A DNA stretch of 64,000 nucleotides, from the NCBI RefSeq assembly GCF_036327775.1, contig NZ_CP109598.1, forward strand, positions 5,034,001 through 5,098,000. The letters are read 5' to 3'. Shown here piece by piece: positions 8,077 to 43,093 of this stretch. This DNA is from Streptomyces sp. NBC_01498 (GTDB lineage Bacteria > Actinomycetota > Actinomycetes > Streptomycetales > Streptomycetaceae). Position 1 is the first letter of the stretch; each line of letters begins with the position of its first letter. The notes under the pieces are model-generated. The model was given only the letters and a program-made list of their open reading frames with translations, made no database searches and was not told where the DNA came from. A program made the position numbers and the translations under genes.

Positions 8077-11000
8077 ATGTCCCAGAACGAGCCCGGTACG
8101 AACCGGGACACCGACGAAGAACTGAACAGCCCCAGCGACACGCTGCCGCCGCGCCGCAGGCGCCGCGCCGCGTCGCGCCCGGCCGGACCGCCCTCCGCGG
8201 CGGCCGAGAGCACCGAGGGGACGACGATCACGGCGAGCGCGCCGGAGGACGCCCCGGCGGGTGCCGAGGAGGCCGCGCCGCCGCGTGCCCGCCGCCGGGC
8301 CACCCGTAAGGCCACCGCTCCCGCGGAGATCGTGGCCGAGCCCACCGCCGAGGTCGCGGCTCCCGAGACACTCGCCGAACCGCCGGCCGAGGACGCGGCG
8401 CCGCCGCGTGCGCGCCGCCGGGCGACCCGTAAGGTCGCCGCCCCGGCCGAGGCCGTCGCCGAGCCGGTGGTCGAGCCGGTGGTGGAGGCCGCCGCCGTGG
8501 AGACGGTCGCCGAACCGGTGGCCGAGGCCGCCGCCGAGGAGGCCGCGCCGCCGCGTGCGCGCCGCCGGGCGACCCGTAAGGTCGCCGCCCCCGCCGAGAG
8601 CGTGCCGGAGCCCGTCGCGGAGACGGTCGCCGAGCCCGTGGCCGAGGCCGCCGCCGAGCCGGTGGCCGAGGAGGCCGCGCCGCCGCGTGCCCGCCGCCGG
8701 GCCACCCGTAAGGTCGCCGCCCCCGCGCCCGTCGAGGACGGGGAGAGCGACGCGACCGTACCGGGCGAGACGCTCCCCGCGGACGTCGTCACCCAGATCA
8801 CCGCCGACGAGGCCCAGGTCGAGGCGGCCGAGAAGGCCGCCACCCGGGGCCGTTCCCGGCGCCGGGCCACCGCGCCCGAGGCCGCCGTGGCCGAGCAGCC
8901 GAAGTCCGAGCCCGCCGCCGAGCCGAGGGCGCGCAAGGCCGAGCAGCGCGACACGTCCAAGCCGTCCGCCGCGCGTGAGCCGGAGGCCGAGGCGCCGGAG
9001 CGTTCGCGCCGCCGCGCCGCCCGGCCCGCCGTCGCCGTCTTCCAGGCGCCGGTCTTCGCCGAGCCGATGTTCCAGACCCCCGAGACGGCCGCCGCGATGG
9101 CCGCCGCCGGTTACGGGGACGACGACGAACTCGACATCGAGGACGTCGAGGACGAGCCGGCGGCCGTCGCGCCCGCCCCCGAGCCGACGGGCCGCCGCCG
9201 GCGCCGTCGTCGCGGCGAGGCCGCCGAGGCGCCCGAGGCCGCGCCCGCGCCGCCCGCCGCCGAGCGGGACACCGACGACTCCGCCGCCGAGGAGTCCGCC
9301 GAGGCCGACGAGCCGGCGGAGTCCGAGGACACCGACGAGTTCGACCGCCCGTCGCGCCGCCGCCGCAGGGGCGGCCGTCGCCGCCGCCGCGGTGAGTCCG
9401 CCGAGAACGACGAGCAGTCGGACGAGCACCACGACGAGGCCGAGAACGAGGACGAGGCCGGCGCCGACCCGGACGCCGCCGACGGCGACGACCAGGACGA
9501 CGACGACTCCGCGACCCAGTCGGGCGGCGGCGGAAGCAGCAGCAGCCGCCGTCGGCGCCGCAGGCGCCGCCGCAGCGGTGACGGCGGCTCCGACAACGAG
9601 AACAACGGCGTGGACGACCCGGAGCGTACGGTCGTCAAGGTCCGGGAGCCCCGGGAACGCCGTACGAAGGACACCGAGCCCGGCACCGGCGTGGACGAGG
9701 TCCAGTCCATCAAGGGCTCGACCCGGCTGGAGGCGAAGAAGCAGCGCCGCCGCGAGGGCCGCGAGCAGGGCCGCCGCCGGGTGCCGATCATCACCGAGGC
9801 GGAGTTCCTGGCGCGCCGCGAGGCCGTCGAACGGGTGATGGTCGTCCGGCAGAACGGCGAGCGCACCCAGATCGGCGTCCTCGAGGACAACGTGCTGGTC
9901 GAGCACTACGTCAACAAGGAGCAGGCCACCAGCTACGTCGGCAACGTCTACCTGGGCAAGGTCCAGAACGTCCTGCCGTCCATGGAGGCCGCGTTCGTCG
10001 ACATCGGCAAGGGACGCAACGCCGTCCTGTACGCCGGTGAGGTCAACTTCGAGGCGCTGGGCATGTCCGGCGGCCCGCGCCGCATCGAGACCGCGCTCAA
10101 GTCCGGCCAGTCGGTCCTCGTCCAGGTGACGAAGGACCCGATCGGCCACAAGGGCGCGCGTCTCACCAGCCAGGTCTCGCTGCCCGGCCGGTACCTCGTG
10201 TACGTCCCCGAGGGCTCCATGACCGGCATCAGCCGCAAGCTCCCGGACACCGAGCGGGCGCGGCTGAAGACCATCCTGAAGAAGATCGTCCCCGAGGACG
10301 CGGGCGTCATCGTCCGTACGGCCGCCGAGGGCGCGAGCGAGGACGAGCTGCGCCGTGACGTCGAGCGCCTCCAGTCGCAGTGGGACGACATCCGCAAGAA
10401 GACGAAGAACGGCAACGCCCCGACGCTGCTCTACGGTGAGCCGGACATGACCGTCCGGGTCGTGCGCGACATCTTCAACGAGGACTTCACCAAGGTCATC
10501 GTCAGCGGTGACGAGGCGTGGCGCACCATCCACGGGTACGTGGAGCACGTGGCGCCCGACCTGTCCGACCGGCTCAACCGCTGGACGAGCGAGGTCGACG
10601 TCTTCGCCTCGTACCGCATCGACGAGCAGCTGATGAAGGCGCTGGACCGCAAGGTCTGGCTGCCGAGCGGCGGCTCGCTGGTGATCGACAAGACCGAGGC
10701 CATGATCGTGGTCGACGTCAACACCGGGAAGTTCACCGGCCAGGGCGGCAACCTGGAAGAGACCGTCACCCGGAACAACCTGGAGGCGGCCGAGGAGATC
10801 GTGCGCCAGCTGCGGCTGCGCGACCTCGGCGGCATCGTCGTCATCGACTTCATCGACATGGTTCTCGAATCCAACCGGGACCTGGTGCTGCGGCGGCTGC
10901 TGGAGTGCCTCGGCCGGGACCGTACGAAGCACCAGGTGGCCGAGGTCACCTCGCTGGGCCTGGTCCAGATGACCCGTAAGCGGGTCGGCCAGGGGCTGCT

Positions 11001-12075
11001 GGAGTCGTTCTCCGAGACCTGTGTCCACTGCAACGGGCGTGGCGTGATCGTCCACATGGAGCAGCCGACCGGTACCGGTGGCGGCGGTGGCGGCAAGCGC
11101 GGGAAGAAGCGGCGCGGCGGGTCCGGGGCGGATCACGACCACGAGCACGAGCACGAGAGCGCCGAGGGTACGGACTCCGAGAGCGAGTCCGAGGCCGAGG
11201 TGGCGGCGGAGGTCGCCGCGCCGGTCGCGCTGGCCGCGCCCGAGTTCGTGCCCGACGAGGAGCTGTACAGCAGCGTCGCGGAGGCCGAGTCGGCCGCCCG
11301 TGGCGGGCGTTCGCGCCGCCGGGCCTCGCGCAAGGCGTCGGCCCCGGCCGGTTCGCCGAAGGCGGCGGAGCCCGAGCGGCGGGGCGGGGCCGACGAGCCG
11401 GCGGAGGTGCCGGCGCCGGTCGCGTCGTCCGTGCCGGTGGCCGAGCCCGAGGCCGTGGTGGAGGAAGTCGCTCCGCAGGGTCGTACGCGGCGCCGGGCCA
11501 CCCGTAAGGCGTCGGCTCCGGCCGGTTCGCCGAAGGCGGCCGGGTCCGAGGAGCCGGCCGAGGTCGTCGTGGAGCCGGCGGCGCCGCCCGCGGCCGAACC
11601 GGCGGACGTCCAGCCCGAGCCGGTGACCGGTGGGTCCGCCGCCGAGGCTCCCGTCACCGACACGCCCGAGGCCGCGCCGCCGCGTGCGCGCCGCCGGGCG
11701 ACCCGTAAGGCGTCGGCCCCGGCCGGTTCGCCGGCGGGCGCCGAGGAGGCGGCCGTCCTGGTGGTGGACTCGGCAGCGGAAACCGCCCGGACGGACGAAT
11801 CGGCGGCCCCGGAATCCACGGGACACACCGACGAGTTCGCCGGTGGGCGCACCGGTGACGACGGTGCGGAATCCGCCGCTCCGGCCAAGAAGGCGACCCG
11901 TAAGGCCGCCAAGAAGGCCCCGGCCAAGAAGGCGGCGGCGAAGAAGACCGCCGCGAAGAAGACCACCGCCAAGAAGACCACCGCGAAGAAGACGACCACC
12001 AAGTCGGCGGCCAAGAAGACCTCGGCGGCCGAGCAGCAGACGGCTCCGGCCGTGTCGGTGTCCTCGGATGGGTGA
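8077..12075 (+). CDS. rne: Ribonuclease E/G with long repetitive N- and C-terminal arms
   Basis: This 1332-residue endoribonuclease of mRNA decay and rRNA/tRNA processing has a central catalytic core (about 590-1000) with an S1-like RNA-binding segment near residue 595. The catalytic aspartates are D880 ('VVDVNTGK') and D924 ('VVIDFIDM'), and the zinc link is C982-x2-C985 ('CVHCNGRG'). The ~585-residue N-terminal arm is disordered, with acidic stretches and at least four copies of 'APPRARRRATRK'. The C-terminal arm has three more related copies and ends in a Lys/Ala-rich histone-H1-like tail. In streptomycetes the core is flanked by both arms, unlike E. coli, where the scaffold is only C-terminal. 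It is followed by a strong terminator. Confidence 0.93.
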   Translation: MSQNEPGTNRDTDEELNSPSDTLPPRRRRRAASRPAGPPSAAAESTEGTTITASAPEDAPAGAEEAAPPRARRRATRKATAPAEIVAEPTAEVAAPETLAEPPAEDAAPPRARRRATRKVAAPAEAVAEPVVEPVVEAAAVETVAEPVAEAAAEEAAPPRARRRATRKVAAPAESVPEPVAETVAEPVAEAAAEPVAEEAAPPRARRRATRKVAAPAPVEDGESDATVPGETLPADVVTQITADEAQVEAAEKAATRGRSRRRATAPEAAVAEQPKSEPAAEPRARKAEQRDTSKPSAAREPEAEAPERSRRRAARPAVAVFQAPVFAEPMFQTPETAAAMAAAGYGDDDELDIEDVEDEPAAVAPAPEPTGRRRRRRRGEAAEAPEAAPAPPAAERDTDDSAAEESAEADEPAESEDTDEFDRPSRRRRRGGRRRRRGESAENDEQSDEHHDEAENEDEAGADPDAADGDDQDDDDSATQSGGGGSSSSRRRRRRRRRSGDGGSDNENNGVDDPERTVVKVREPRERRTKDTEPGTGVDEVQSIKGSTRLEAKKQRRREGREQGRRRVPIITEAEFLARREAVERVMVVRQNGERTQIGVLEDNVLVEHYVNKEQATSYVGNVYLGKVQNVLPSMEAAFVDIGKGRNAVLYAGEVNFEALGMSGGPRRIETALKSGQSVLVQVTKDPIGHKGARLTSQVSLPGRYLVYVPEGSMTGISRKLPDTERARLKTILKKIVPEDAGVIVRTAAEGASEDELRRDVERLQSQWDDIRKKTKNGNAPTLLYGEPDMTVRVVRDIFNEDFTKVIVSGDEAWRTIHGYVEHVAPDLSDRLNRWTSEVDVFASYRIDEQLMKALDRKVWLPSGGSLVIDKTEAMIVVDVNTGKFTGQGGNLEETVTRNNLEAAEEIVRQLRLRDLGGIVVIDFIDMVLESNRDLVLRRLLECLGRDRTKHQVAEVTSLGLVQMTRKRVGQGLLESFSETCVHCNGRGVIVHMEQPTGTGGGGGGKRGKKRRGGSGADHDHEHEHESAEGTDSESESEAEVAAEVAAPVALAAPEFVPDEELYSSVAEAESAARGGRSRRRASRKASAPAGSPKAAEPERRGGADEPAEVPAPVASSVPVAEPEAVVEEVAPQGRTRRRATRKASAPAGSPKAAGSEEPAEVVVEPAAPPAAEPADVQPEPVTGGSAAEAPVTDTPEAAPPRARRRATRKASAPAGSPAGAEEAAVLVVDSAAETARTDESAAPESTGHTDEFAGGRTGDDGAESAAPAKKATRKAAKKAPAKKAAAKKTAAKKTTAKKTTAKKTTTKSAAKKTSAAEQQTAPAVSVSSDG
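8272..8715 (+). repeat. Arginine-rich repeats in the RNase E N-terminal arm
   Basis: Four near-identical in-frame copies of a ~40-nt unit encoding 'APPRARRRATRK' begin near 8272, 8395, 8545 and 8675, separated by Ala/Glu/Val-rich spacers. Related copies recur after the catalytic core near 11300, 11485 and 11670. Confidence 0.85.
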
Positions 12076-12431: not shown

Positions 12432-13550
12432 ATGTCGAGCAGTGAAGTGCAGCCCATCCCCGCAGCCCGCCCGGTCATCGGGGAAGAAGAGATCGAGGCC
12501 GCGGTCCGTGTGCTGCGCACCGGACGGGTCGTCCAGGGGCCCGAGGTGGCCGCGTTCGAGGAAGGCTTCTCCGAACTGGTCGCCGGCCGCCACTGCGTGG
12601 CTGTGAACTCCGGCACATCGGCACTCCACCTGCTGCTGCTCGCCCTCGGTATCGGTCCGGGCGACGAGGTGATCGTGCCCTCGTTCTCGTTCGCCGCCTC
12701 CGCCAACGCGGTCCGCCTCGTCGGCGCCGACGTCGTCTTCGCCGACATCGAGCCCGGCAACTTCGGCCTCGACCCGGCCGCCGTCGAGGCCGCGATCACC
12801 CCGCGCACCGCCGCGATCATGCCGGTCCACCTGTACGGCAACCCGGCCTCGATGGACCGGCTGATGCCCCTCGCCGACAAGCACAAGCTCGCCGTCGTCG
12901 AGGACGCCTGCCAGGCGCACGCCGCCTCGCTGCACGGCACCCCGGTCGGCGCCTTCGGCTCCGGCGGCACCTTCAGCTTCTACCCGACGAAGAACATGCA
13001 CTCCCTCGAGGGCGGCATGATCTCCACCGGTGACGCCGAGGTCGCCCGCACCCTGCGTCTGCTGCGCAACCAGGGCATGGAGCAGCGGTACGCCAACGAG
13101 ATCGTCGGCGCCAACATGCGCCTCACCGACGTGGCCGCCGCCATCGGCCGGGTACAGCTCGGCAAGCTCCCCGGCTGGACCGAACGGCGCCGCGAGAACG
13201 CCGCGTACCTGAGCGCCAACATCACCGCGCCGGGCGTGGTGACCCCGCCGGTCGCCGAGGGCGCACACCACGTCTACCACCAGTACACCGTCCGGATCAC
13301 CGGTGACCGCGACGCCGCCATGGCCGCGCTCACCGAGGCGGGCGTCGGCAACGCCGTGTACTACCCGACCCCCATCCACCGGCTGCGGCCGTTCTGGGAG
13401 CCGGACCAGAAGGCCGGACGCGACTGGGACCTGCCGGAGACCGAGCGGGCCGCCGCCGAGGTCGTCTCCCTCCCGGTGCACCCCTCGCTGTCCGAGGGCG
13501 ACCTGGAGCGGATCGTCACCGCCGTGAACACGCTGGGAGAGAAGCTGTGA
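12432..13550 (+). CDS. DegT/DnrJ/EryC1/StrS aminotransferase (WbpE/WlbC-like)
   Basis: This 372-residue PLP-dependent sugar aminotransferase is predicted to aminate C3 of a UDP-3-keto-GlcNAc-uronic acid. The PLP lysine is K187 in 'FSFYPTKNMHSLEGG', the StrS-family pattern, and the N-terminus 'IPAARPVIGEEEIEAAVRVLR' is typical. It is first in an operon whose Gfo/Idh oxidoreductase starts inside its stop (GTGA overlap). Together with the dehydrogenase at 17767 and the acetyltransferase at 19719 it completes the WbpA-B-E-D set, which is why this substrate is favoured. StrS enzymes acting on other keto-sugars look similar, so the substrate is inferred. Confidence 0.88.
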   Translation: MSSSEVQPIPAARPVIGEEEIEAAVRVLRTGRVVQGPEVAAFEEGFSELVAGRHCVAVNSGTSALHLLLLALGIGPGDEVIVPSFSFAASANAVRLVGADVVFADIEPGNFGLDPAAVEAAITPRTAAIMPVHLYGNPASMDRLMPLADKHKLAVVEDACQAHAASLHGTPVGAFGSGGTFSFYPTKNMHSLEGGMISTGDAEVARTLRLLRNQGMEQRYANEIVGANMRLTDVAAAIGRVQLGKLPGWTERRRENAAYLSANITAPGVVTPPVAEGAHHVYHQYTVRITGDRDAAMAALTEAGVGNAVYYPTPIHRLRPFWEPDQKAGRDWDLPETERAAAEVVSLPVHPSLSEGDLERIVTAVNTLGEKL

Positions 13551-14569
13551 CCACCGGGATACTGCGCGCCGGACTGATCGGTCTGGGCTCGATGGGGCGC
13601 CACCACGCACGCGTACTCGCGGGCCTCGACGGTGTGACGCTCGTCGGCGTCGTCGACCCGCTGGGCGACAAGAACGGGCTGGCCCAGGGCGCGCCCGTCC
13701 TGTCCACCGTCGAGGAACTCCTCGCGCTCGGTGTCGACTACGCCGTGATCGCCTGCCCGACCGCCCTGCACGAGGAGGTCGGCCTCCAGCTCGCCGAGGC
13801 CGGGGTCTGCGCGCTCATCGAGAAGCCGCTGGCCGACACCGTGGACGGCGCGCGCCGACTGGTCGAGGCGTTCGAGTCGCGCGACCTGGTCGCCGGCGTC
13901 GGGCACATCGAGCGCTGCAACCCGGCGCTGCGCAGCCTGCGTGCCCGGCTGGAGGCCGGTGAACTCGGCGACGTGTACCAGGTGGTGACACGCCGTCAGG
14001 GACCGTTCCCGCACCGCATCGCCGACGTCGGCGTGGTCAAGGACCTCGCCACCCACGACATCGACCTGACCGGCTGGGTGACCGGCCAGACGTACACGTC
14101 GATCTCCGCCCACACGGTGTCCAAGAGCGGCCGTCCGCACGAGGACATGGTCTCCGCCGTGGGCCGGCTCTCCGACGGGACGATGGTCAACCACCTCGTC
14201 AACTGGCTGAGCCCGCTCAAGGAACGTTTCACCTCGGTCACCGGCGAGCGCGGCTGCTTCATCGCCGACACGCTCACCGCCGACCTGACCTTCTACTCCA
14301 ACGCCGCCGTGACGACCGAGTGGGAGGCGCTGCGCGCCTTCCGCGGCGTCGCCGAGGGCGACATGATCCGCTACGCCATCCCCAAGCGCGAGCCGCTGCT
14401 GGTGGAGCACGAGCTGTTCCGGGACGCGGTGCTCGGCAAGTCGCACGACATCTGCACCCTGCGGCAGGGACTGCGCACGGTCGAGGTGGCGGCGTCCGTC
14501 CTCGAGTCGGCCGCGAACGGCACGACCGTGGTACTTGAGACAGGAGACCCCGCAAGCCATGTCGGCTGA
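13547..14569 (+). CDS. Gfo/Idh/MocA-family oxidoreductase (WbpB/WlbA-like)
   Basis: This 340-residue NAD(P)-dependent sugar oxidoreductase has a Rossmann start 'AGLIGLGSMGRHHARVL' (G-x-G-x-x-G) and the family E-K-P motif in 'CALIEKPLADT'. In the WbpB/WlbA branch these enzymes oxidise C3 of UDP-GlcNAcA so that a partner aminotransferase can act, and this gene is translationally coupled to such an aminotransferase (GTG 13547 overlaps its TGA). Its own 3' end overlaps the following GT4 start by 11 nt. The family is certain; the substrate follows from context. Confidence 0.88.
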   Translation: MTTGILRAGLIGLGSMGRHHARVLAGLDGVTLVGVVDPLGDKNGLAQGAPVLSTVEELLALGVDYAVIACPTALHEEVGLQLAEAGVCALIEKPLADTVDGARRLVEAFESRDLVAGVGHIERCNPALRSLRARLEAGELGDVYQVVTRRQGPFPHRIADVGVVKDLATHDIDLTGWVTGQTYTSISAHTVSKSGRPHEDMVSAVGRLSDGTMVNHLVNWLSPLKERFTSVTGERGCFIADTLTADLTFYSNAAVTTEWEALRAFRGVAEGDMIRYAIPKREPLLVEHELFRDAVLGKSHDICTLRQGLRTVEVAASVLESAANGTTVVLETGDPASHVG

Positions 14570-16139
14570 CAATCTGGTGGCCCAGCGGAACGCGAGCTCA
14601 CGCGGGCGGATCGTGATGCTCGTGGACAACGGCGTGAACGGTGACTCCAGAGTCCAGAAGGAAGCACGTTCGGCGGCGGCGGCCGGCTGGGACGTGATCC
14701 TGCTCGGCAAGTCGCCCACGAAGAGCGAGCAGACATGGCGCCTCGGGGACGCCGAGGTCAGGCTGCTGCCGGTGGCCAACCCCATGCACCGGCGCCGGTA
14801 CGAGTACCGCCGCGCGATCCTGCGCGCCCCCCTCGCCTACCGGCCGGGGCCGCTCGCCGCGTACCGCAGGCAGAAGATGAAGGCGTGGCGCGCCGAGCTG
14901 AACCTCCGGCTCATCGAGGCCCGGCTGGCCGGTTCGGCCGTCCGGCGGCTGGCCCTGATCCCGCAGCGCCTCGCCTCCAACCTGATGAGCAAGTGGGTCG
15001 GGCTGCGCGCCCGGCAGGCACGCTCCCTGGAGCGCCGCCGCAAGGACATGACGTCTCCGCTGGACCGCTTCTCGACCTCCTTCTGGCAGCGCACGATGGG
15101 CGTGCGCGCCTGGCGGCGGCTCGACCCCTTCCTGTGGGACATCGAACTCGCCTACGGCAAGGTCATCGACGCCCTCGACCCGGATCTGATCCACGCGAAC
15201 GACTTCCGCATGATCGGTGTGGGCGCGCGGGCGAAGCTGCGCGCCAAGGGCCGGGGCCGGGAGATCAAGCTGGTCTGGGACGCGCACGAGTTCCTGCCCG
15301 GCATCAAGCCGTGGAACCCGCACCCGCGCTGGCACATCGCCCAGATCGCGCACGAGAGCGAGTACGCGGCACACGCGGACGCCGTCACCACCGTCTCCGG
15401 GACGCTCGGCGAGATGCTCGTCGAACGCCACGGCCTGCCCGCCGCCCCCGAGGTCGTGCTCAACGCCCCGGACGCGGAGATCTCCCCGGAACAGGCCGCC
15501 GAGCCGGTGCCGGACCTGCGCGCCCTGTGCGGGATAGGACCCGACGTCCCGCTGACGGTCTACAGCGGCGCGGCGGCCCCGCAGCGCGGCCTCGACATCA
15601 TGGTCGAGTCCCTTCCGCGACTGCCCGGCGTCCATGTGGCGTTCGTGGTGCTGCGGCCCACCTCGGAGTACATGAACTCGCTGCTGCTGAGGGCGGCCGA
15701 ACTGGGCGTCGCGGAACGGGTCCACATCCTCCCGTACGTGCCGCACTACCAGGTCGTGCCGTTCCTCGCCGCGGCGGACATCGGGGTCATCCCGATCCAC
15801 CACTGGCCCAACCACGAGATCGCACTGATCACCAAGTTCTTCGAGTACTCCCACGCCCGGCTGCCGTTCGTGGTGAGCGACGTGAAGACGATGGGGGAGA
15901 TGGTCGCGAAGACGGGGCAGGGCGAGGTCTTCACCGCGGAGGACGTCTCGGACTACGTCCGCGCGGTCGAGGCGGTCCTCGCCGACCCCAAGCGGTACCG
16001 CGCGGTGTACGACGACCAGGGGCTGCTCGCCGAATGGACCTGGGAGGCGCAGGCCGAGATCCTCGACGGCGTCTACTCCCGGCTCCTGGGCCGCGCCCGG
16101 GGCACGGCCGAAGCCAGGGCGACCCGGGTGGCGGCATGA
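14559..16139 (+). CDS. Glycosyltransferase family 4 protein
   Basis: From ATG 14559, preceded by CAGGAG, the protein has 526 residues; an 8-codon longer reading from GTG 14535 lacks a good ribosome binding site. The N-terminal Rossmann-like half opens with 'GRIVMLVDNGVNGDSRVQKE', a form common in actinobacterial GT4/GT1 transferases of surface polysaccharide loci. A basic region at about 95-190 suggests membrane association. The C-terminal nucleotide-binding half includes 'LTVYSGAAAPQRGLDIMVES' and 'ALITKFFEYSHARLPFVVSD'. It sits inside the amino-sugar operon with ATGA coupling to the next GT2, so it probably transfers a sugar to the same polymer. Acceptor and donor are unknown. Confidence 0.85.
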   Translation: MSADNLVAQRNASSRGRIVMLVDNGVNGDSRVQKEARSAAAAGWDVILLGKSPTKSEQTWRLGDAEVRLLPVANPMHRRRYEYRRAILRAPLAYRPGPLAAYRRQKMKAWRAELNLRLIEARLAGSAVRRLALIPQRLASNLMSKWVGLRARQARSLERRRKDMTSPLDRFSTSFWQRTMGVRAWRRLDPFLWDIELAYGKVIDALDPDLIHANDFRMIGVGARAKLRAKGRGREIKLVWDAHEFLPGIKPWNPHPRWHIAQIAHESEYAAHADAVTTVSGTLGEMLVERHGLPAAPEVVLNAPDAEISPEQAAEPVPDLRALCGIGPDVPLTVYSGAAAPQRGLDIMVESLPRLPGVHVAFVVLRPTSEYMNSLLLRAAELGVAERVHILPYVPHYQVVPFLAAADIGVIPIHHWPNHEIALITKFFEYSHARLPFVVSDVKTMGEMVAKTGQGEVFTAEDVSDYVRAVEAVLADPKRYRAVYDDQGLLAEWTWEAQAEILDGVYSRLLGRARGTAEARATRVAA

Positions 16140-17770
16140 GCGCCGCGCCGGACGTCACGGTCGTGGTGGCCGTGTACAACACGATGCCGTATCTGACCGA
16201 GTGTCTGAACTCGCTCGTCGGACAGAGCATCGGTCTCGGGCGCCTGGAGATCGTGGCGGTGAACGACGGGTCGACCGACGACAGCGGCGCGGAACTCGAC
16301 CGCTTCGCCGAGCGGTACCCCGGCACCGTCAAGGTGATCCACCAGACCAACAGCGGTGGCCCGGCGGCCCCCAGCAATCGCGCCCTGGAGATCGCCACCG
16401 GCCGTTTCGTGTACTTCGTCGGCTCCGACGACCACCTCGGCGAGGAGGCCCTGGAGCGCATGGTCGCCTGCGCCGACGAGCACGGGTCGGACGTGGTGGT
16501 CGGCAGGATGGTCGGCACCAACGGCCGTTACGTCCGGCAGACGCTCTACAAGAAGAGCGACCCGGACATCAGTCTGTACGACTCCGACCTGCCGTTCGCC
16601 CTGGCCAACACCAAGCTCTTCCGGCGCGAACTGGTCGAGAAGCACAAGCTGCGTTTCCCCGAGGACCTGCCGGTCGGCAGCGACCAGCCGTTCACCATCG
16701 AGGCGTGCGTCCGCGCGGAGCGGATCTCCGTCCTCGGCGACTACACGTACTACTACGCGGTGAAGCGCGGCGACGCGAGCAACATCACCTACCGCGCGAA
16801 CCATCTGTCCCGGCTGCACTGCACCACCCGCATCATGCGGCACGCGGCGGAGCTGATCGAGGCGGGTCCCCGGCGTGACGCCGTGTTGAAGCGGCACTTC
16901 ACCTGGGAGCTGGCCAAGCTGATCCAGGACGACTTCCTGCCGCTCGATGCCGCCACGCAGCGTGAACTGTGCGCGGGAATAGCGGAACTCGCCGACGACT
17001 ACCTGACGGACGGCCTGCGCGACTCGCTCGACGTCAAGCGCCGGGTCCGGATCCTGCTGGCCCAGCGCGGTGCCGTGGCCGAACTCGGCAGGGCCATCGC
17101 CGACGAGGCCGGACACGGTGCGCCGCCGTTCCTGCTCGACGCCGGGCGGGCGTTCGCCGTCTACCCCGGCCTGCGCGACCCGGCCCTGCAACTGCCGGAC
17201 CGTGGTTACGAGTTGGTGGGAGAGGCGGTCCCCGGCCGGCTGGCCGACGGGACGCGGCTGCTCTCCGCCGAATGGGAGCGGACCGGCGACACGCTGTTCG
17301 CCGTGTTCGCCGTACGGATCGGGATCACCGGACACACCGACTCCGCCGTGATCCGGCTGGCCCGCACCGCGATGCCCGCGAGCGCCGACAAGGCGGCGGC
17401 CCGCCGGCTGCCCGCCGGGCACGAACTCCCCGACGCCGTGGGCGAGTTCACCCGGATCCCGGAACCCGGTGGTGGGGGCGGCACCGTCCTGACCGCGCGG
17501 GTCCCGCTCCCGCCGGCCAAGGTCAAGGCGGGCGTCCGCGTCTACGTGGACGTGGCCGGCTCGACGTACGAGATCCCCGTCCGTACCCGTGGCCTGCCGA
17601 TGCCGCTCGCCCGCCGCTGGGGCGACCGCGTCCCCTACCGCGCCTCGGCCAATGTGAATCCCAAGGGACGACTGGTGATCACCACCGCTCCGCTGTGGGA
17701 GCCGACACCGTCCTTCCGCGCGCGGGTGCGAAGCCTGCTGCCCCGGAACAAGAGGAAAGTAGCCCGATGA
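16136..17770 (+). CDS. GT2 glycosyltransferase with a beta-rich C-terminal extension
   Basis: This 544-residue protein has a GT-A fold in its first ~230 residues: 'VTVVVAVYNTMPYLTECLNS', 'VNDGSTDDS' and a D-x-D equivalent in 'FVGSDDHLGEEAL'. A helical linker follows. Residues about 340-520 form a beta-rich region ('YEIPVRTRG', 'GRLVITTAPLWEP') ending in a basic tail. This plan, a GT-A domain plus a C-terminal accessory module, resembles poly(ribitol-phosphate) glycosyltransferases of the TarS/TarP type, but I infer that from organisation, not alignment. The ATG overlaps the preceding TGA, and its own stop overlaps the sugar dehydrogenase start (both ATGA), so the block is one operon. Confidence 0.83.
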   Translation: MSAAPDVTVVVAVYNTMPYLTECLNSLVGQSIGLGRLEIVAVNDGSTDDSGAELDRFAERYPGTVKVIHQTNSGGPAAPSNRALEIATGRFVYFVGSDDHLGEEALERMVACADEHGSDVVVGRMVGTNGRYVRQTLYKKSDPDISLYDSDLPFALANTKLFRRELVEKHKLRFPEDLPVGSDQPFTIEACVRAERISVLGDYTYYYAVKRGDASNITYRANHLSRLHCTTRIMRHAAELIEAGPRRDAVLKRHFTWELAKLIQDDFLPLDAATQRELCAGIAELADDYLTDGLRDSLDVKRRVRILLAQRGAVAELGRAIADEAGHGAPPFLLDAGRAFAVYPGLRDPALQLPDRGYELVGEAVPGRLADGTRLLSAEWERTGDTLFAVFAVRIGITGHTDSAVIRLARTAMPASADKAAARRLPAGHELPDAVGEFTRIPEPGGGGGTVLTARVPLPPAKVKAGVRVYVDVAGSTYEIPVRTRGLPMPLARRWGDRVPYRASANVNPKGRLVITTAPLWEPTPSFRARVRSLLPRNKRKVAR

Positions 17771-19050
17771 ACATCTGTGTAGTCGCGCTCGGCAAGATCG
17801 GTCTGCCGCTCGCCGTGCAGTTCGCCGCCAAGGGCCACCGCGTCTTCGGCGCCGACGTCAACGAGAAGGTCGTCGACCTGGTCAACGCCGGTACGGAGCC
17901 GTTCCCCGGCGAGCACGACCTGGATGTCAAGCTCAAGCAGACGGTCGGCGCCGGGCTGCTGACGGCCACCACCGACACCGCCGCCGCCGTCGCGCAGTCC
18001 GACGCCGTCGTGGTCGTCGTCCCGCTCTTCGTCGACGCCGAGGGCGTGCCCGACTTCGGCTGGATGGACAACGCCACCAAGGCGATCGCCAAGGGCCTCA
18101 AGCCCGGCACCCTCGTCAGCTACGAGACCACCCTGCCCGTCGGCACCACCCGTACCCGCTGGGCGCCCATGCTCCAGGAGGGCTCCGGGCTCACCCCCGG
18201 CGAGGACTTCCACCTGGTCTTCTCGCCCGAACGCGTCCTGACCGGGCGGGTGTTCGCGGATCTGCGCCGCTACCCCAAGCTCGTCGGCGGCATCGACGAG
18301 GCGTCCGCCAGGCACGGCGTCGAGTTCTACGAGTCCGTGCTGGACTTCGACGTACGCGAGGACCTGCCGCGCGCGAACGGCGTCTGGGACCTCGGCACCG
18401 CCGAGGCGTCCGAGCTGGCGAAGCTCGCCGAGACCACGTACCGCGACGTCAACATCGGTCTGGCCAACCAGTTCGCGCGCTTCGCCGACCAGAACGGCAT
18501 CGACGTCAAGAAGGTCATCGAAGCCTGCAACAGCCAGCCCTACAGCCACATCCACCAGCCCGGCATCGCCGTCGGCGGCCACTGCATCCCGATCTACCCG
18601 CGCATGTACCTGTGGAACGACCCGGCGGCGACGGTCGTGCGCTCGGCGCGCGAGGCCAACGCGGCCATGCCCGAGTACGCGGTGGACCTGCTGGCGGCGG
18701 CGTACGGCGACCTGGCCGGCGTGAACGTGCTCGTCCTGGGCGCCGCCTACCGCGGCGGCGTCAAGGAGACCGCGTTCTCCGGCGTCTACCCGACCGTCGA
18801 GGCCCTGCGCGCACGCGGCGCCGTGCCGTACGTCTCCGACCCGATGTACACGGCCGAGGAACTGACCGCGCACGGCCTGCCGCCGCACCAGGGCGAGAAG
18901 GTCACCGCCGCCGTGCTCCAGGCCGACCACGCCGAGTACCGCGACCTGAAGCCGGCCGACCTGCCGGACGTCACGGTCCTGGTCGACGGCCGCCGCACCA
19001 CCGACCCGGACGCCTGGCGCGGTGTGCGCCGTGTCGTCATCGGCGGCTGA
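17767..19050 (+). CDS. UDP-N-acetyl-hexosamine 6-dehydrogenase (WbpA/WecC-like)
   Basis: This 427-residue nucleotide-sugar dehydrogenase oxidises C6 of a UDP-HexNAc to the uronic acid using two NAD+. The N-terminal NAD domain starts 'NICVVALGKIGLPLAVQFA'; position 7 is Ala where most relatives have the first Gly of G-x-G-x-x-G. The catalytic cysteine is C273 in 'AVGGHCIPIYPRM', and the C-terminal UDP-binding domain contains 'VLVLGAAYRGGVKE'. In this operon it would supply UDP-GlcNAcA to the oxidoreductase-aminotransferase pair. UDP-ManNAc dehydrogenase (WecC) is the main alternative. Confidence 0.9.
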   Translation: MNICVVALGKIGLPLAVQFAAKGHRVFGADVNEKVVDLVNAGTEPFPGEHDLDVKLKQTVGAGLLTATTDTAAAVAQSDAVVVVVPLFVDAEGVPDFGWMDNATKAIAKGLKPGTLVSYETTLPVGTTRTRWAPMLQEGSGLTPGEDFHLVFSPERVLTGRVFADLRRYPKLVGGIDEASARHGVEFYESVLDFDVREDLPRANGVWDLGTAEASELAKLAETTYRDVNIGLANQFARFADQNGIDVKKVIEACNSQPYSHIHQPGIAVGGHCIPIYPRMYLWNDPAATVVRSAREANAAMPEYAVDLLAAAYGDLAGVNVLVLGAAYRGGVKETAFSGVYPTVEALRARGAVPYVSDPMYTAEELTAHGLPPHQGEKVTAAVLQADHAEYRDLKPADLPDVTVLVDGRRTTDPDAWRGVRRVVIGG

Positions 19051-19068
19051 CGGCTCCCGGCAGACCGC

Positions 19069-19101
19069 AAGAGGCCCGAACCACGGTGGTTCGGGCCTCT
19101 T
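19069..19101. terminator. Bidirectional terminator between convergent genes
   Basis: A 15-bp perfect inverted repeat (AAGAGGCCCGAACCA with TGGTTCGGGCCTCTT) has a 3-nt loop. Its arms begin with AA and end with TT, so it can act in both directions between the dehydrogenase and the acetyltransferase. Confidence 0.9.
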
Positions 19102-19119
19102 CGCCGTCCGGCGACGGTG

Positions 19120-19719
19120 TCAGCGGCGCTCGGTGAGGACGCCGTCCTTCTCGTCGTGCAGCGCGCCGGTCCTCGGGCACTCCCACACCCCGGGCTCCGC
19201 GTCCCGCTCCACGAGCTTCACACCGGCCCGCCCGACCCAGCCGATCCGGCGGGCGGGCACGCCCACGACCAGCCCGAAGTCCGGCACGTCCTTCGTGACG
19301 ACGGCCCCGGCGGCGATCATCGCCCAGCGGCCGATCCGTACGGGCGCGACGCAGACCGACCGGGCGCCCAGCGAGGCGCCCTCCGCGATCTTCACGCCGA
19401 CGGCCTCCCAGTCGGAGCCGCGCTTCAGGGTGCCGTCCGGGTCCACGGAGCGGGGGTTCAGGTCGTTGGTGAGGACGACGGCGGGCCCGATGAAGACCCC
19501 GTCGGCCAGCTCGGCGGGCTCGTACACCAGCGCGTAGTTCTGGATCTTGACGTTGTCGCCGATCCGGACCCCGGTCCCGACATAGGCACCCCGCCCGACC
19601 ACGCAGTTCTCGCCGAGACGCGCGTTCTCCCGGATCTGCGCGAGCTCCCAGACACTGCTGCCGTCACCGACCGCGGCGGTCTCGTCGACCTGGGCGGTGG
19701 GCTGGACCCTGTAGTTCAC
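19120..19719 (-). CDS. Left-handed beta-helix N-acetyltransferase (WbpD/WlbB-like)
   Basis: This 199-residue protein is made almost entirely of hexapeptide repeats ([LIV]-G-x-x-x-x), for example 'ARLGENCVVGRGAYVGTGVRIG'. It carries the acetyl-CoA turn near 'IGRWAMIAAGAVVTKDVPDFGLVVGVPARRIG'. The size and the 'LTNDLNPR' segment fit the 3-N-acetyltransferases acting on UDP-3-amino sugars in the WbpD/WlbB group. It starts with GTG (19717-19719) behind a GGAAGG ribosome binding site and converges on the operon encoding the other three pathway enzymes. It may share a transcript with the upstream acyltransferase gene. Confidence 0.87.
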   Translation of the reverse strand: MNYRVQPTAQVDETAAVGDGSSVWELAQIRENARLGENCVVGRGAYVGTGVRIGDNVKIQNYALVYEPAELADGVFIGPAVVLTNDLNPRSVDPDGTLKRGSDWEAVGVKIAEGASLGARSVCVAPVRIGRWAMIAAGAVVTKDVPDFGLVVGVPARRIGWVGRAGVKLVERDAEPGVWECPRTGALHDEKDGVLTERR

Positions 19720-19785: not shown

Positions 19786-20862
19786 CTACGCCCGCGTCCC
19801 GGCACCGTCCCGCCGCAGCGCCCAGCTCATCCGCGGCTCCACCACGTACCGGAACACCCTCCGCACCGGCGGTGTGCACAGCGCCGTCACGAGCAGCGCG
19901 GCGGTCAGGGTCACCGCGATCCGGCCGGCCGGGGTCTCCAGGAACGGGTGGTCGTAGCCGCCGAGGTAGCGCGCGCCCCGGACGAGGAAGCCGTGCAGCA
20001 GATATCCGTAGAGCGTCCCGGCGCCCAGCACGGTCATCCACAGGCGACGGCGCGGCACCCACGCCAGGAAGCACGCGCCCAGCACCAGCGCGACGGCGAA
20101 CAGCAGCAGTGTCATCGCCGCACCCGCCCAGACCGGCTCACCCAGCTCCCGGGCCCCGTAGCTCCTGAAGAACCAGGACGTGGACATGCGCGGGACCGAC
20201 CAGTAGGCGCCCAGCAGCGCGACCAGGCAGACGGGCACCGCCGCGACCCGCACCCGGGTGCGGCGCAGAGCGGCGAAGTGCTCGGGGCGCAGACACAGGC
20301 CCAGCACGAAGAACGGCAGGAACTGAAGGACCCGCATCAACTGGAGATCGTCCCCGATCCCGGTCGACATCGACGCGAACGCGGCGACGGCGAGCGCCAG
20401 GGGCACCGGCCACCGGACCAGCTGCCAGAACGGCGTGGTGATCCGCCACAGGAAGAGAGCGGGCAGGAACCAGAGCATCCAGTACGGGTCCGCCGGGGTC
20501 AGCGGGAAGCCGGGGTCCTCCACGGCGCGGTGGAAGAGGGTGTACGCCACCTCGAAGATCGCGTACGGCACGAGAATCCCGGTGAACAGCCGCCACACCC
20601 GTTTCGGGCTCATGTCGAAACCGCGTGAGAAGTAGCCCGCGATCACGATGAAGACGGGCATGTGGAAGGCGTACACAAAGCTGTACAGCGCCTCCACCAC
20701 CCGCCCGCTGCCCGGCAGCGGCTCCCACGCGTGCCCGACCGCGACCAGCACGATGGCCAGATACTTCGCGTTGTCGAAGAACGGATCCCGCACCCCGGCG
20801 GCGTCCCCGGCACGCGTGTCGGCGGAGGTTTCGGGAAGCGTCCGGGAGAGGGATGAGGCCAT
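19786..20862 (-). CDS. Acyltransferase 3 family membrane protein
   Basis: This 358-residue integral membrane O-acyltransferase has about ten hydrophobic segments. The family signature near the N-terminus is 'FFDNAKYLAIVLVAVGHAWE', whose His is the conserved one, followed by 'FHMPVFIVIAGYF'. Such enzymes acetylate or acylate surface sugars from cytoplasmic acyl-CoA. Lying 66 nt upstream of the acetyltransferase on the same strand, it is a plausible decorating enzyme of the polymer made by this island. A TAGGGT box (20874-20869 on the minus strand) 6 nt before the ATG predicts a leaderless transcript. Confidence 0.86.
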   Translation of the reverse strand: MASSLSRTLPETSADTRAGDAAGVRDPFFDNAKYLAIVLVAVGHAWEPLPGSGRVVEALYSFVYAFHMPVFIVIAGYFSRGFDMSPKRVWRLFTGILVPYAIFEVAYTLFHRAVEDPGFPLTPADPYWMLWFLPALFLWRITTPFWQLVRWPVPLALAVAAFASMSTGIGDDLQLMRVLQFLPFFVLGLCLRPEHFAALRRTRVRVAAVPVCLVALLGAYWSVPRMSTSWFFRSYGARELGEPVWAGAAMTLLLFAVALVLGACFLAWVPRRRLWMTVLGAGTLYGYLLHGFLVRGARYLGGYDHPFLETPAGRIAVTLTAALLVTALCTPPVRRVFRYVVEPRMSWALRRDGAGTRA

Positions 20863-21245: not shown

Positions 21246-21569
21246 GTGTACGCCATCGTGCGCAGCGGTGGTCGCCAGCACAAGGTTGCTGTCGACGACA
21301 TCGTTGAGGTTGACAAGATTCCCACGGCCAAGGTTGGCGACACGGTCGAGCTCTCGACCCTGCTCGTGGTCGACGGCGAGGCCGTGACCAGCGACCCGTG
21401 GGTGCTGGACGGCATCAAGGTCACCGCCGAGGTCGTGGACCACCACAAGGGTGCGAAGATCGACATTCTTCGCTACAAGAACAAGACCGGTTACCGCCGT
21501 CGCCAGGGCCACCGCCAGCAGTACACGGCGATCAAGGTCACCGCGATTCCCGCCGCGGCGAAGAAGTAA
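21246..21569 (+). CDS. rplU: 50S ribosomal protein L21
   Basis: This 107-residue ribosomal protein binds 23S rRNA. It opens with the diagnostic '[25 protein letters not shown]' block (translation from GTG 21246) and ends with the basic '[17 protein letters not shown]' segment. Length and sequence are typical. It is first in the conserved rplU-rpmA-obgE order, 14 nt before rpmA, behind a strong promoter at 21046-21075. Confidence 0.98.
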
Positions 21570-21583
21570 GGGACTGAGGAGAC

Positions 21584-21841
21584 ATGGCACACAAGAAGGG
21601 CGCATCGTCCACCCGTAACGGGCGCGACTCGAACGCTCAGCGGCTCGGCGTGAAGCGCTTCGGCGGTCAGGTCGTGCTCGCCGGTGAGATCCTCGTCCGC
21701 CAGCGTGGCACCCACTTCCACCCCGGTTCGGGTGTGGGCCGTGGTGGCGACGACACGCTGTTCGCGCTCACCCCCGGCGCGGTCGAGTTCGGCAAGAGCC
21801 GTGGCCGCAACGTCGTGAACATCGTTCCGGTCGCCGAGTAA
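21584..21841 (+). CDS. rpmA: 50S ribosomal protein L27
   Basis: This 85-residue protein reaches into the peptidyl transferase centre of the large subunit. The N-terminus '[24 protein letters not shown]' and the '[18 protein letters not shown]' block are family hallmarks. There is no cleavable N-terminal extension like that of Firmicutes. A GAGGAG ribosome binding site precedes the ATG. A long hairpin lies between it and obgE. Confidence 0.98.
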
Positions 21842-21920: not shown

Positions 21921-22002
21921 TTCGCGTGTTGAACGCGTGGAACCCACTGGACCCGACGGTCCGGTGAAGGCAAGACTTTCCGTATGTACTGGAGGCACCA
22001 CC

Positions 22003-23609: not shown

Positions 23610-23906
23610 TTCGTCGTACACACGTCCCGCGACGCGCCCGTTGGCCGAAAGACAGCTGCGGGTATTGAGCGATATGGGCGGAATAATAGGCATGCGGTTT
23701 CTCCTCACGCGTGCGCACAACCGTTGACCGCGTTGACCCGTCTTGCCTGAGGGGGCGGCAGGTGCCGGTTCCGCGAAGTGCCGCTGTCCGCCGGGAGGCC
23801 GGGCGGGACTCTCGCGGACGGGGGCCAGGGCCGCGTGAACCCGTCCGGAACCACAGGGAACCCCGGGACCGACCACCCGGGATTCCGATCACCGAACGGA
23901 GCGTTG

Positions 23907-25940
23907 ATGAAGATCTCTTTCCTCATCCACACCATCTACGGCATCGGCGGCACCATCCGCACCACGCTCAACCTCGCCGAGGAGTTCGCCGACCAGCACG
24001 AGGTCGAGATCGTGTCGGTCTTCCGGCACCGGCCCGTCCCGCTCTTCGACGTCGACCCGCGGCTCACCCTCGTCCCGCTCATCCACACCTGGAAGGAGTC
24101 CCCGGAGTACGAGAAGGAACACCCGCTCCATCTCAGGCCCGCCGAGCACTTCCCGCGCCACGAGGCGCGCTACCGCGAGTACAGCAAGCTGACCGACGAA
24201 CGCGTCAGGGAGCACTACGCCCGCTCGGACGCCGACGTCGTCATCGGGACCAGACCCGGACTCTCCGCGTACGTCGCCCAGTTCGCCCCGGTGAGCGCCG
24301 TGCTCATCGGCCAGGAACACATGACGTACAACCACCACAAGCCCGCGCTGCGCAACGAGATGTACCAGCACATCGACGCCCTCGACGCCTACGTCACCGT
24401 CTCCGAGGGCGACGCCGCCGTGTACCGCGAGCAGATGCCGCTGCCCGCGACCCGGGTGCTCGCCATCCCCAACAGCGTTCCCGAGCCGCCGATCGAGCCG
24501 TCCACCGGCTCCGGCACCACGATCGTCGCGGCAGGACGGCTCTCCGCCGAGAAGCAGTACGGCGTGCTGATCGACGCCTTCGCCAAGGTCGTCGCCGTAC
24601 GCCCGGAGTGGGACCTGCGGATCTACGGCGGCGGCCCGGAGAAGGAGAACCTCCGCAAGAAGATCGACACCCTCGGCCTCTACAACAGCGTGCGCCTCAT
24701 GGGCTCCGTCTCGCCCATCGAGCCCGAGTGGGCCAAGGGCGCCATCGCCGCGTCCACCTCACGTCACGAGTCCTTCGGCATGACCCTCGTGGAGGCGATG
24801 CGCTGTGGGCTGCCCGTCGTCAGCAGCGACTGCGACTACGGCCCCCGCGAGATCATCCGGCCGGGCGCGGACGGCCTGTTGGTGCCGGTGTCCGACGCCG
24901 GCGCGGTCGCCGACGCGCTGCTCACCCTCATCGACGACGAGCCGCTGCGCCGCCGGATGAGCGAGGCGGCCGTACGCAACGCGTCCCGCTTCGACCCCGG
25001 CCAGGTCGCCAAGAAGTACGAGGAGCTGTTCGGCGAACTGCGTACGGTCTCCGCCCAGCGCGCCGCCCTGGGCGACTTCGTCCCGGTCGCCGACTGCGCG
25101 GTGGAGCCCGGCGGCGCCCTCACCTTCGCGCTCGTCGCCCCCGGCGCCGCCGCCGCCCACGAGGGCATGAGGCTGATCTGCGTACGCGCGGACGCCCGCA
25201 CGGAGGAGCGCGCCTTCCCGCTCTCCGCCGCCGGCACGGTCACGATCCCGGCGGACGCGGCGTTCAGCGAGGGAGTGTGGGAGTGCTTCGCCGAACTCCC
25301 CGAAACAGGGCGGCGGGTACGGATCACCGCCCGCTCCGTCGACCAGCGCGGCGCGATGGGCGCGTGCGCCCGCGCACGCCAGGGCGACCCGGTCCACCAT
25401 CTCGTGCCGTACGCGTCCCGCCCCCGCAAGCACCTGGCCTTCCGCGCCTGGGTCCGGCCGGTGCACGCCGAGGCCGGGGACATCCACGTCGAGGGCAAGC
25501 GCATCACGGTCGCGGGCGAGCTGTTCGGCGCGGGCACGATGGACCGGCGCCCCTCGCTGGTGGTACGCCGACGGGGCAAACCCGCCGAGGAGTTGACGTA
25601 CGCGGGCAGCAGGCAGGGGGAGCGCGGCTTCCGCTTCACGTTCCCCGCCTCGGGGCCCGCGGGCCGTCAGATCGCCGGGTCGGAGTCGTGGGACCTGCTG
25701 CTCAAGTACGCCCCCGACGCCGCCCCGGTGAAGGTCGCGCGGGTGCTCGACGACGTCGTCGAGAAGCGGCCGATCTACGAATACCCCGTCACCGAGGTGC
25801 GCAAGAGCAGGCCGTGGGGACCGTTGCGCAGAGTGGCCCGTAAACTGAGGAGCCGGCCGGCCCAGTGGGTGCGCGTACGCATCATGTACATGGGCGCCAA
25901 CGACCTTGTCGTCAATGTGGCGGACGCGCCGGCGAAATAG
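23907..25940 (+). CDS. Glycosyltransferase family 4 with C-terminal beta-rich domains (TagE-like)
   Basis: From ATG 23907 the protein has 677 residues; a longer reading from 23778 adds 43 low-complexity residues. The first ~380 form a GT-B retaining transferase: 'MKISFLIHTIYGIGGTIRTT', 'IVAAGRLSAEKQYGVLIDAF' and the E-x7-E-type motif 'ESFGMTLVEA'. The remaining ~290 residues are beta-rich accessory modules ending in a basic segment (about 600-655), probably membrane-associating. The best-known relatives with this opening are poly(glycerol-phosphate) alpha-glucosyltransferases and other polymer-decorating enzymes. It precedes CDP-ribitol and polymerase genes, so wall-teichoic-acid-like glycosylation is inferred; the sugar is unknown. 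Confidence 0.85.
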   Translation: MKISFLIHTIYGIGGTIRTTLNLAEEFADQHEVEIVSVFRHRPVPLFDVDPRLTLVPLIHTWKESPEYEKEHPLHLRPAEHFPRHEARYREYSKLTDERVREHYARSDADVVIGTRPGLSAYVAQFAPVSAVLIGQEHMTYNHHKPALRNEMYQHIDALDAYVTVSEGDAAVYREQMPLPATRVLAIPNSVPEPPIEPSTGSGTTIVAAGRLSAEKQYGVLIDAFAKVVAVRPEWDLRIYGGGPEKENLRKKIDTLGLYNSVRLMGSVSPIEPEWAKGAIAASTSRHESFGMTLVEAMRCGLPVVSSDCDYGPREIIRPGADGLLVPVSDAGAVADALLTLIDDEPLRRRMSEAAVRNASRFDPGQVAKKYEELFGELRTVSAQRAALGDFVPVADCAVEPGGALTFALVAPGAAAAHEGMRLICVRADARTEERAFPLSAAGTVTIPADAAFSEGVWECFAELPETGRRVRITARSVDQRGAMGACARARQGDPVHHLVPYASRPRKHLAFRAWVRPVHAEAGDIHVEGKRITVAGELFGAGTMDRRPSLVVRRRGKPAEELTYAGSRQGERGFRFTFPASGPAGRQIAGSESWDLLLKYAPDAAPVKVARVLDDVVEKRPIYEYPVTEVRKSRPWGPLRRVARKLRSRPAQWVRVRIMYMGANDLVVNVADAPAK

Positions 25941-26234
25941 CGCGGAAACAACGGGAACCCTTCGCCAGCAGGGGATTTCCCTTACATGACGCTTATTTCG
26001 CGGTCGTGAAACGGCGGGCGCGAGGTAGAGGTCCCGTGGAGGTACCGGCCGGGCCGGTGTGCCGATGTGGCATCGGTCACGCCGCACTTGGCCGGAACTC
26101 AACCTAATCTGGCTGGCCAGAGGGTGAACAGATGGTTTCCTGTGGGTGAGGGGTATCCGGCGTCCGCCTTGCGAGACGGTCACGGAGAGTGCGACCATCA
26201 CGGCGTCCCCACTCGTCTCAAGGTAGGTCGTTCT
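25941..26234 (+). promoter_or_regulatory. Intergenic region before the cytidylyltransferase-SDR fusion
   Basis: About 290 nt, less GC-rich near 25940-26000 than its surroundings. I see no gene and no convincing -35/-10 pair. A purine-rich AAGGTAGG (26219-26226) is the ribosome binding site that sets the GTG start at 26235. Confidence 0.4.
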
Positions 26235-27737: not shown

Positions 27738-27760
27738 TAATTCTCCACAAGTTTGCATTT

Positions 27761-27803
27761 ACGGGCCTTTGCAGTCGCCTTTCGGGCGAATTGCAGAGGC
27801 CCG
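27761..27803 (+). terminator. Hairpin between the fusion gene and the polymerase gene
   Basis: Imperfect ~19-bp stem (outer ACGGGCC/GGCCCGT) with a short loop and no following U tract. It may be a partial terminator or a processing site inside the operon. Confidence 0.6.
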
Positions 27804-27878
27804 TGTGCGTGAAGCCCCGACTTCACAATTCCCGCCAACCGTGAAATAACCGGCACCCCCTCCTGGAGCAGGTTCTTC

Positions 27879-40975: not shown

Positions 40976-41048
40976 GGGGCTATAGCTCAGTTGGTAGAGC
41001 GCCTGCATGGCATGCAGGAGGTCAGGAGTTCAATTCTCCTTAGCTCCA
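40976..41048 (+). tRNA. tRNA-Ala (anticodon GGC), first copy
   Basis: 73 nt. The acceptor stem GGGGCTA/TAGCTCC contains the G3-U70 wobble pair that defines alanine identity. The D arm is 'GCTCAGTTGGTAGAGC', the anticodon loop ATGGCAT sits on a CCTGC/GCAGG stem with anticodon GGC, and the T arm is AGGAG-TTCAATT-CTCCT. The discriminator is A, and CCA is not encoded. Confidence 0.97.
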
Positions 41049-43020: not shown

Positions 43021-43093
43021 GGGGCTATAGCTCAGTTGGTAGAGCGCCTGCATGGCATGCAGGAGGTCAGGAGTTCAATTCTCCTTAGCTCCA
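43021..43093 (+). tRNA. tRNA-Ala (anticodon GGC), second copy
   Basis: Identical over all 73 nt to the copy at 40976-41048, including the G3-U70 pair, the anticodon loop ATGGCAT and the absence of encoded CCA. The copies are direct repeats ~2 kb apart; their flanks differ. Confidence 0.97.

Follow-up and report, generated by a model that had tools for sequence, protein, structure and literature searches.

The closest described systems are the utr loci of Streptomyces. In S. griseus, utrA-J are located close to the genes for L21 and L27; resistant mutants, deletion of utrC and nuclear magnetic resonance (NMR) established that a teichuronic-acid-like polymer is attached to the ribitol wall teichoic acid, composed of N-acetylgalactosamine (GalNAc) and 2,3-diacetamido-2,3-dideoxy-mannuronic acid (ManNAc3NAcA), which is the receptor used by an umbrella toxin of S. 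coelicolor (PMC13274773, Cell 2025). The text of the same report describes the S. antibioticus NRRL B-1701 locus as lacking utrE, utrF and utrH and having utrC, a second transferase, utrG, and utrI; by NMR, its product is a beta-1,4-linked homopolymer of 2,3-diacetamido-2,3-dideoxy-glucuronic acid (GlcNAc3NAcA) with a 4-O-acetyl end, carried on the ribitol phosphate of wall teichoic acid. Its authors assign the utr pathway by analogy with Pseudomonas aeruginosa and state that it has no experimental validation (PMC13274773). Further known occurrences of the chemistry include the Wbp/Wlb pathways of Pseudomonas and Bordetella, the GnnA/GnnB route to UDP-GlcNAc3N for the lipid A of some Gram-negatives, and archaeal GlcNAc3NAcA (PMC2952790). 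Here, we analyze a window of 64,000 nucleotides from Streptomyces sp. NBC_01498 (bases 5034001–5098000 of its one-contig, 7,267,618-base, 99.95 percent complete genome; positions below are those of the window unless stated otherwise) that holds a compact version of the Streptomyces utr locus. While this kind of locus is already known, two observations are new: its oxidoreductase, UtrB, is nearest to GnnA rather than WlbA, and another actinomycete, G389, has a utrJ-utrA-utrB run without a 6-dehydrogenase.

A compact utr locus between rne and rplU

The locus is bounded by rne (the RNase E gene, 8077–12075) on one side and the genes for L21 (rplU, at 21246), L27 (rpmA, at 21584) and Obg (obg, at 21937) on the other. 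The core genes utrA, utrB, utrC and utrD are all present between 12432 and 19050 as part of a single overlapping + strand operon encoding, in order, an aminotransferase, an oxidoreductase, a family 4 glycosyltransferase (GT4), a family 2 (GT2) transferase with a TarS linker and a 6-dehydrogenase. Neighboring genes share 4, 11, 4 and 4 bases in turn if the GT4 gene is taken to start at 14559. Convergent to them on the - strand are a hexapeptide acetyltransferase and then a membrane O-acyltransferase. A scan for promoters and terminators returned no signal exceeding shuffled sequences. An earlier note made from the letters of this stretch had named an StrS aminotransferase (K187), a Gfo/Idh oxidoreductase and a UDP-HexNAc 6-dehydrogenase (C273) in one overlapping operon with two glycosyltransferases, plus a convergent hexapeptide-repeat acetyltransferase, and all of these were recovered, with both residues at the positions it gave. 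Its range of 12432–19719 does enclose the four enzymes but stops one gene short, as the O-acyltransferase gene belongs to the locus too.

We consider it likely that this locus directs the conversion of UDP-GlcNAc to UDP-GlcNAc3NAcA and from there to a gluco-configured chain on wall teichoic acid. UtrB, UtrA, UtrJ and UtrD would carry out C3 oxidation, C3 transamination, N-acetylation and C6 oxidation, respectively, to yield UDP-2,3-diacetamido-2,3-dideoxy-glucuronic acid. The TarS-like UtrC would then begin the chain on the ribitol phosphate of wall teichoic acid, elongation would fall to the GT4 enzyme, alone or together with UtrC, and the membrane acyltransferase would O-acetylate the end of the chain. 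We infer the reactions, linkages and polymer, along with a putative role as an umbrella-toxin receptor, from the genes, by way of their content, conservation, key residues and the absence of PF02350 from the genome.

The conservation of the locus is pronounced. We compared 80 loci, kept from the 199 related loci found and including that of S. griseus (L057); the order utrA-utrB-utrC-utrD on a single strand is present in all 80, which argues that the association of these genes is not due to chance, and rne stands in front in each of the 74 loci where that position is seen (74/80). The nearest named relatives of the oxidoreductase among these 80 of 199 loci are from S. camponoticapitis, Streptomyces sp. 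NP-1717 and S. niveus, at 95–96 percent identity. Within the genus, UtrB is found at E <= 1e-100 in 56 of 295 genomes (own included), and nearly full-length UtrC of at least 66 percent identity occurs, among the matches listed, in 47 of 295. In a sample of the class covering 394 genomes and 137 genera, UtrB (E <= 1e-60) is present in 77 genomes, again counting our own, and 35 genera. Among the 76 other UtrB-holding genomes of this sample, strong relatives of UtrD (E <= 1e-120) occur in 69 and relatives of UtrJ (E <= 1e-30) in 72. Moreover, in 22 diverged loci (L107–L128, UtrB below 80 percent identity, about 3–4 kb each, two of them from one genus), UtrJ lies within the stretch in 17 and directly adjoins UtrA in 16, thereby tying the convergent acetyltransferase to the pathway.

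Predicted product and comparison with known loci

The locus lacks a 2-epimerase, a 4-epimerase and UtrF, and a gluco GlcNAc3NAcA chain like that of S. antibioticus is hence predicted. The earlier note had suggested the gluco form as end product from the lack of a WbpI-type epimerase. In line with this, a profile search of the whole one-contig genome with PF02350 (UDP-GlcNAc 2-epimerase) gave no match, the same search having returned matches in 11 of 14 control genomes; thus, the gluco product is well supported. The alternative of a manno product, UDP-ManNAc3NAcA, as made by S. griseus, with the epimerase encoded elsewhere, has in its favor that the near relatives L014 and L015 (S. niveus) possess a utrH-type epimerase at the locus, but the empty PF02350 search in so complete a genome renders it highly unlikely.

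In its gene content the window parallels S. antibioticus as far as the text of that report describes it: both are without utrE, utrF and utrH, and both have a TarS-like transferase, a second transferase and an acyltransferase, the second transferase being matched to utrG by description only. The presence of utrA, utrB, utrD and utrJ in S. antibioticus is implied by its sugar, the loci compared here being drawn from other strains. That this same type of locus yields a wall-linked homopolymer (PMC13274773) supports the earlier proposal that the sugar of the window enters a polymer. The S. griseus locus shares the chromosomal place and the core, with UtrA, UtrB and UtrD being 88, 91 and 89 percent identical to their counterparts in the window, but adds a GalE-type utrE, two PF13692-type transferases and a PF02350 utrH epimerase. 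The region from rne to rplU in the window has no match to the UtrE, UtrF and UtrH proteins of L057, and neither of the two PF13692-type transferases is present there.

The Wbp/Wlb pathways contain the same four reaction types, and the acetyltransferase of the window is nearest to WlbB. In contrast, the window has no WbpI-type epimerase, its oxidoreductase is nearer to GnnA, and it is predicted to serve a Gram-positive wall polymer rather than an O-antigen. As for the GnnA/GnnB route, UtrB has in GnnA its closest solved relative at the sequence level, but the window adds an N-acetyltransferase and a C6 dehydrogenase. To our knowledge, there is no lipid A in this group of bacteria.

Enzymes of the locus

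UtrA (12432–13550, + strand) is a sugar aminotransferase of the DegT/DnrJ/EryC1/StrS family (PF01041, 398 bits) with the pyridoxal-phosphate lysine, Lys187, in the motif SFYPTKNM. It is the sole near-full-length member among the 13 DegT matches of the genome. A profile built from 19 relatives retrieves 7b0d first (375.7 bits), an entry named glutamine--scyllo-inositol transaminase, followed by 2oga, perosamine synthetases, QdtB and WbpE at 328 to 301 bits.

UtrB (13547–14569, + strand) is a Gfo/Idh/MocA-type NDP-sugar 3-dehydrogenase (PF01408). Its top match, both by sequence and by Foldseek, is 7bvj (GnnA), with which it shares 30 percent identity across 298 aligned residues. The sequence match to GnnA scores 104.6 bits against 75.2 bits for WlbA, and the Foldseek rank likewise favors GnnA. 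Against NF040723 (UDP-GlcNAc 3-dehydrogenase) it scores 189.6 bits, under the model cut-off of 450. WbpB entries are absent from its solved-structure matches at the thresholds used, which is not proof of distance. Our literature search for GnnA found no title naming Streptomyces. The pathway to UDP-GlcNAc3NAcA set out in the earlier note is thus supported, with the qualification that its designation of this protein as WbpB gives the right kind of reaction and perhaps the wrong substrate.

UtrD (17767–19050, + strand) is a UDP-sugar 6-dehydrogenase with Cys273 in the motif GGHC. It scores 278.7 bits against TIGR03026 (cut-off 189.8), and within NCBIfam it clears only this general nucleotide-sugar dehydrogenase model. 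Its nearest solved relatives are 4r16, an archaeal-type UDP-ManNAcA dehydrogenase and the best match, and Cap5O. UtrJ (19120–19719, - strand) is a hexapeptide N-acetyltransferase of the WlbB/WbpD type (PF00132) that matches 3mqg, which we take to be WlbB, with 148 bits across nearly its whole length; the runner-up is 4mzu at 91.6 bits. The possibility raised in the earlier note that it might group with serine acetyltransferases was rejected, with the EpsC model at 47.6 bits (cut-off 150) and the cysE model at 37.8 bits, far under its cut-off.

The GT4-type glycosyltransferase (14559–16139, + strand; PF00534/PF13692/PF13439) is the second transferase of the operon and has a GT-B fold. Its structural model has a mean predicted confidence (pLDDT) of 84.6, and the best-matching folds are sucrose-phosphate synthase, MshA and GlgM. 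UtrC (16136–17770, + strand) is a GT2 glycosyltransferase with a TarS linker (PF00535, PF22181), whose best solved structures are 5tze/5tz8, presumably TarS entries, at 159 bits. It is 69 percent identical to the UtrC of S. griseus, and its Asp183, in the motif GSDQPFTIE, matches the catalytic Asp181 of the latter, the residue targeted by mutation in S. griseus. The utrI-like membrane O-acyltransferase (19786–20862, - strand; PF01757, 77 bits) belongs to the Acyl_transf_3 family; S. griseus has a member of this family as its utrI, and the S. niveus locus contains one as well. Its product is predicted to O-acetylate the chain end.

Weighing the predicted pathway

Several of these matches weigh against the proposed pathway. 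The UtrA profile gives C3 and C4 aminotransferases comparable scores, and 7b0d, with its inositol-transaminase name, leads the matches by about 48 bits. As this profile cannot separate C3 from C4, the C3 assignment rests on the partner oxidoreductase, whose nearest relative is a 3-dehydrogenase. UtrD, in turn, is nearest to UDP-ManNAc dehydrogenases among the structures and models compared, a set without WbpA; given the empty PF02350 search, UDP-ManNAc should not be available to it by the known route. Finally, the fold model of the GT4 protein resembles retaining GT-B enzymes, which are expected to form alpha bonds, in contrast to the beta linkage of the S. antibioticus chain. The chain may be made by UtrC, the GT4 enzyme may be inverting, or the polymer of the window may differ.

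Might the enzymes instead make a 4-amino or other diamino sugar for a secondary metabolite or a different glycan? The slight preference of the UtrA profile for a perosamine synthetase over WbpE (326.8 versus 304.1 bits) and its inositol-transaminase-named top match would fit such a role. However, the partner UtrB is nearest to a 3-dehydrogenase and not a 4,6-dehydratase, the neighbors are wall glycan transferases, and the order is kept beside rne wherever that gene is seen; we therefore regard this reading as very improbable.

Order of the chemical steps

Within the preferred pathway to a GlcNAc3NAcA chain, the order of the oxidations could take two forms. In the strict Pseudomonas order, a version of the above explanation that is compatible with it, UtrD would oxidize UDP-GlcNAc at C6 first and UtrB would then act on UDP-GlcNAcA; we would place it just short of probable. 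It follows the Wbp precedent, where C6 oxidation by WbpA comes first, WbpB acts next and WbpD acts on a uronic acid (PMC10622841); UtrJ is nearest to WlbB, the equivalent of this WbpD. It is also favored by UtrB Lys165, which is kept in 69 of 70 UtrD-positive genomes (own included) as compared to 4 of 7 without a strong UtrD relative (77 genomes, L099–L128 and L131–L177; Fisher p 0.002, not corrected for descent), and by the alignment, which places a Met of GnnA at the equivalent position. This pattern is as expected if the lysine holds the carboxylate, and residue 165 is accordingly a candidate specificity residue, as judged from the aligned sequences. Set against this order are the greater proximity of UtrB to GnnA than to WlbA, the presence of Met at 165 in the UtrD-positive G196 (locus L107), and the J-A-B run of the near-complete genome G389. 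A motif at UtrB residues 152–153, noticed in a first comparison of two genomes against 24 as a potential marker for the lack of UtrD, was dropped: across the 77 sequences, 5 of the 70 UtrD-positive genomes also depart from it, and 4 of the 7 lacking a strong UtrD preserve it unchanged.

The other form, which we tentatively posit as possible rather than probable, is a hybrid actinomycete route: GnnA-type C3 oxidation of UDP-GlcNAc, amination and N-acetylation would generate UDP-GlcNAc3NAc, with C6 oxidation coming last. C3 amination may thus precede C6 oxidation. The C3 module and the C6 dehydrogenase would then be separable, differing from the published Wbp-like proposal for Streptomyces. GnnA accepts a substrate without a carboxylate (PMC5644692), and the J-A-B run of G389 without a 6-dehydrogenase points to a C3 module able to function independently of C6 oxidation, which a GnnA-type enzyme would permit. 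G389 is a 100 percent complete actinomycete genome in 4 contigs, in which the run (L131, 4265–6932) lies in a surface-glycan region with a Wzt-type ABC protein, a GT2 and a UDP-galactopyranose mutase. No UDP-sugar 6-dehydrogenase exceeds the PF03721 cut-off in this genome, the one match scoring 23.5 bits against a cut-off of 27. It may hence use the neutral sugar GlcNAc3NAc. G389 itself keeps Lys165. The counterpoint is that G106 and G168 of the same genus have UtrD, making a recent loss of UtrD with relic genes possible. Of the seven genomes without strong UtrD, four (G050, G051, G320 and G343) are split over 200–430 contigs, so that the gene may simply be absent from the assembly, G204 lacks UtrJ and matches UtrB only weakly (47 percent), and G114 has other UDP-sugar dehydrogenases; with these set aside, only G389 carries the argument for C6 independence.

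Variation between loci

Among the 80 loci, a utrH-like epimerase is seen in 46 and a GalE-like gene (at least 60 percent identity) in 28, both counts being lower bounds as 60 of the 80 loci end before rplU. A transferase at least 60 percent identical to the GT4 of the window occurs upstream of utrD in 34 loci. Six of the 34 carry utrH as well, and a GalE-like gene at the same threshold occurs in none. Twenty loci extend as far as rplU or rpmA within the flank, a subset biased toward short clusters; of these, 16 lack both epimerases and all 20 have utrJ. The arrangement of the window, i.e., a single GT4 (at least 71 percent) between utrB and utrC and utrJ less than 200 bases after utrD, is found in 11 of these 20, with three of the 11 having a further transferase after utrJ.

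Compared with the window, L014 and L015, which belong to its nearest relatives, have an additional transferase (a second GT4) and utrH. Their rne, UtrA, UtrB, UtrD and UtrJ are 95–98 percent identical to those of the window, as compared to 88 percent for UtrC, 60–61 percent for the GT4 and 85–87 percent for the acyltransferase. In L013, whose contig ends after utrD, the GT4 is 89 percent identical to that of the window. Thus, between close species the sugar-nucleotide enzymes are nearly constant (95–97 percent identity), while the transferases, epimerase and acyltransferase vary in sequence or in presence. We read the contrast of L014 and L015 with the window as probable recent switching of gene content at the locus.

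Adjacent wall teichoic acid module and other features

After obg, the window contains a ribitol-phosphate wall teichoic acid module (23778–30023) coding for a GT4 transferase, a TarIJ-type fusion and a TagF-like polymerase. It is the probable acceptor system for the polymer. The TarIJ-type fusion (26067–27737, + strand; PF01128 + PF00106) is assigned to CDP-ribitol synthesis: its first half passes NF001183 (D-ribitol-5-phosphate cytidylyltransferase) with 168.5 bits against a cut-off of 166 and scores 168.8 bits with the IspD model, under the cut-off of 181.3. The TagF/TarL-like polyol-phosphate polymerase (27879–30023, + strand) has a weak PF04464 match (29.7 bits, cut-off 22.1), and none of the NCBIfam models matched it.

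Upstream of the locus lie transpeptidase, FtsW/RodA-type, CYTH/CHAD and radical SAM genes. Elsewhere in the window are two tRNA genes with equal model scores (40976–41048 and 43021–43093). Outside the window, a 383-codon frame at G000:C1:4552845–4553576 has five matches to PF03752 (ALF); a further match to UDP-sugar dehydrogenases lies nearby, at 4550718. The ALF repeat is known from the UmbC proteins of umbrella toxins; we make no UmbA or UmbC claim for this frame.

Implications

The locus falls into the class of variable wall polymers that determine which Streptomyces can be hit by the umbrella toxin of a rival. With its GnnA-like oxidoreductase, the as yet unproven order of biosynthesis can be put directly to the test and, if the hybrid route is true, neutral GlcNAc3NAc would be used as such in some species.

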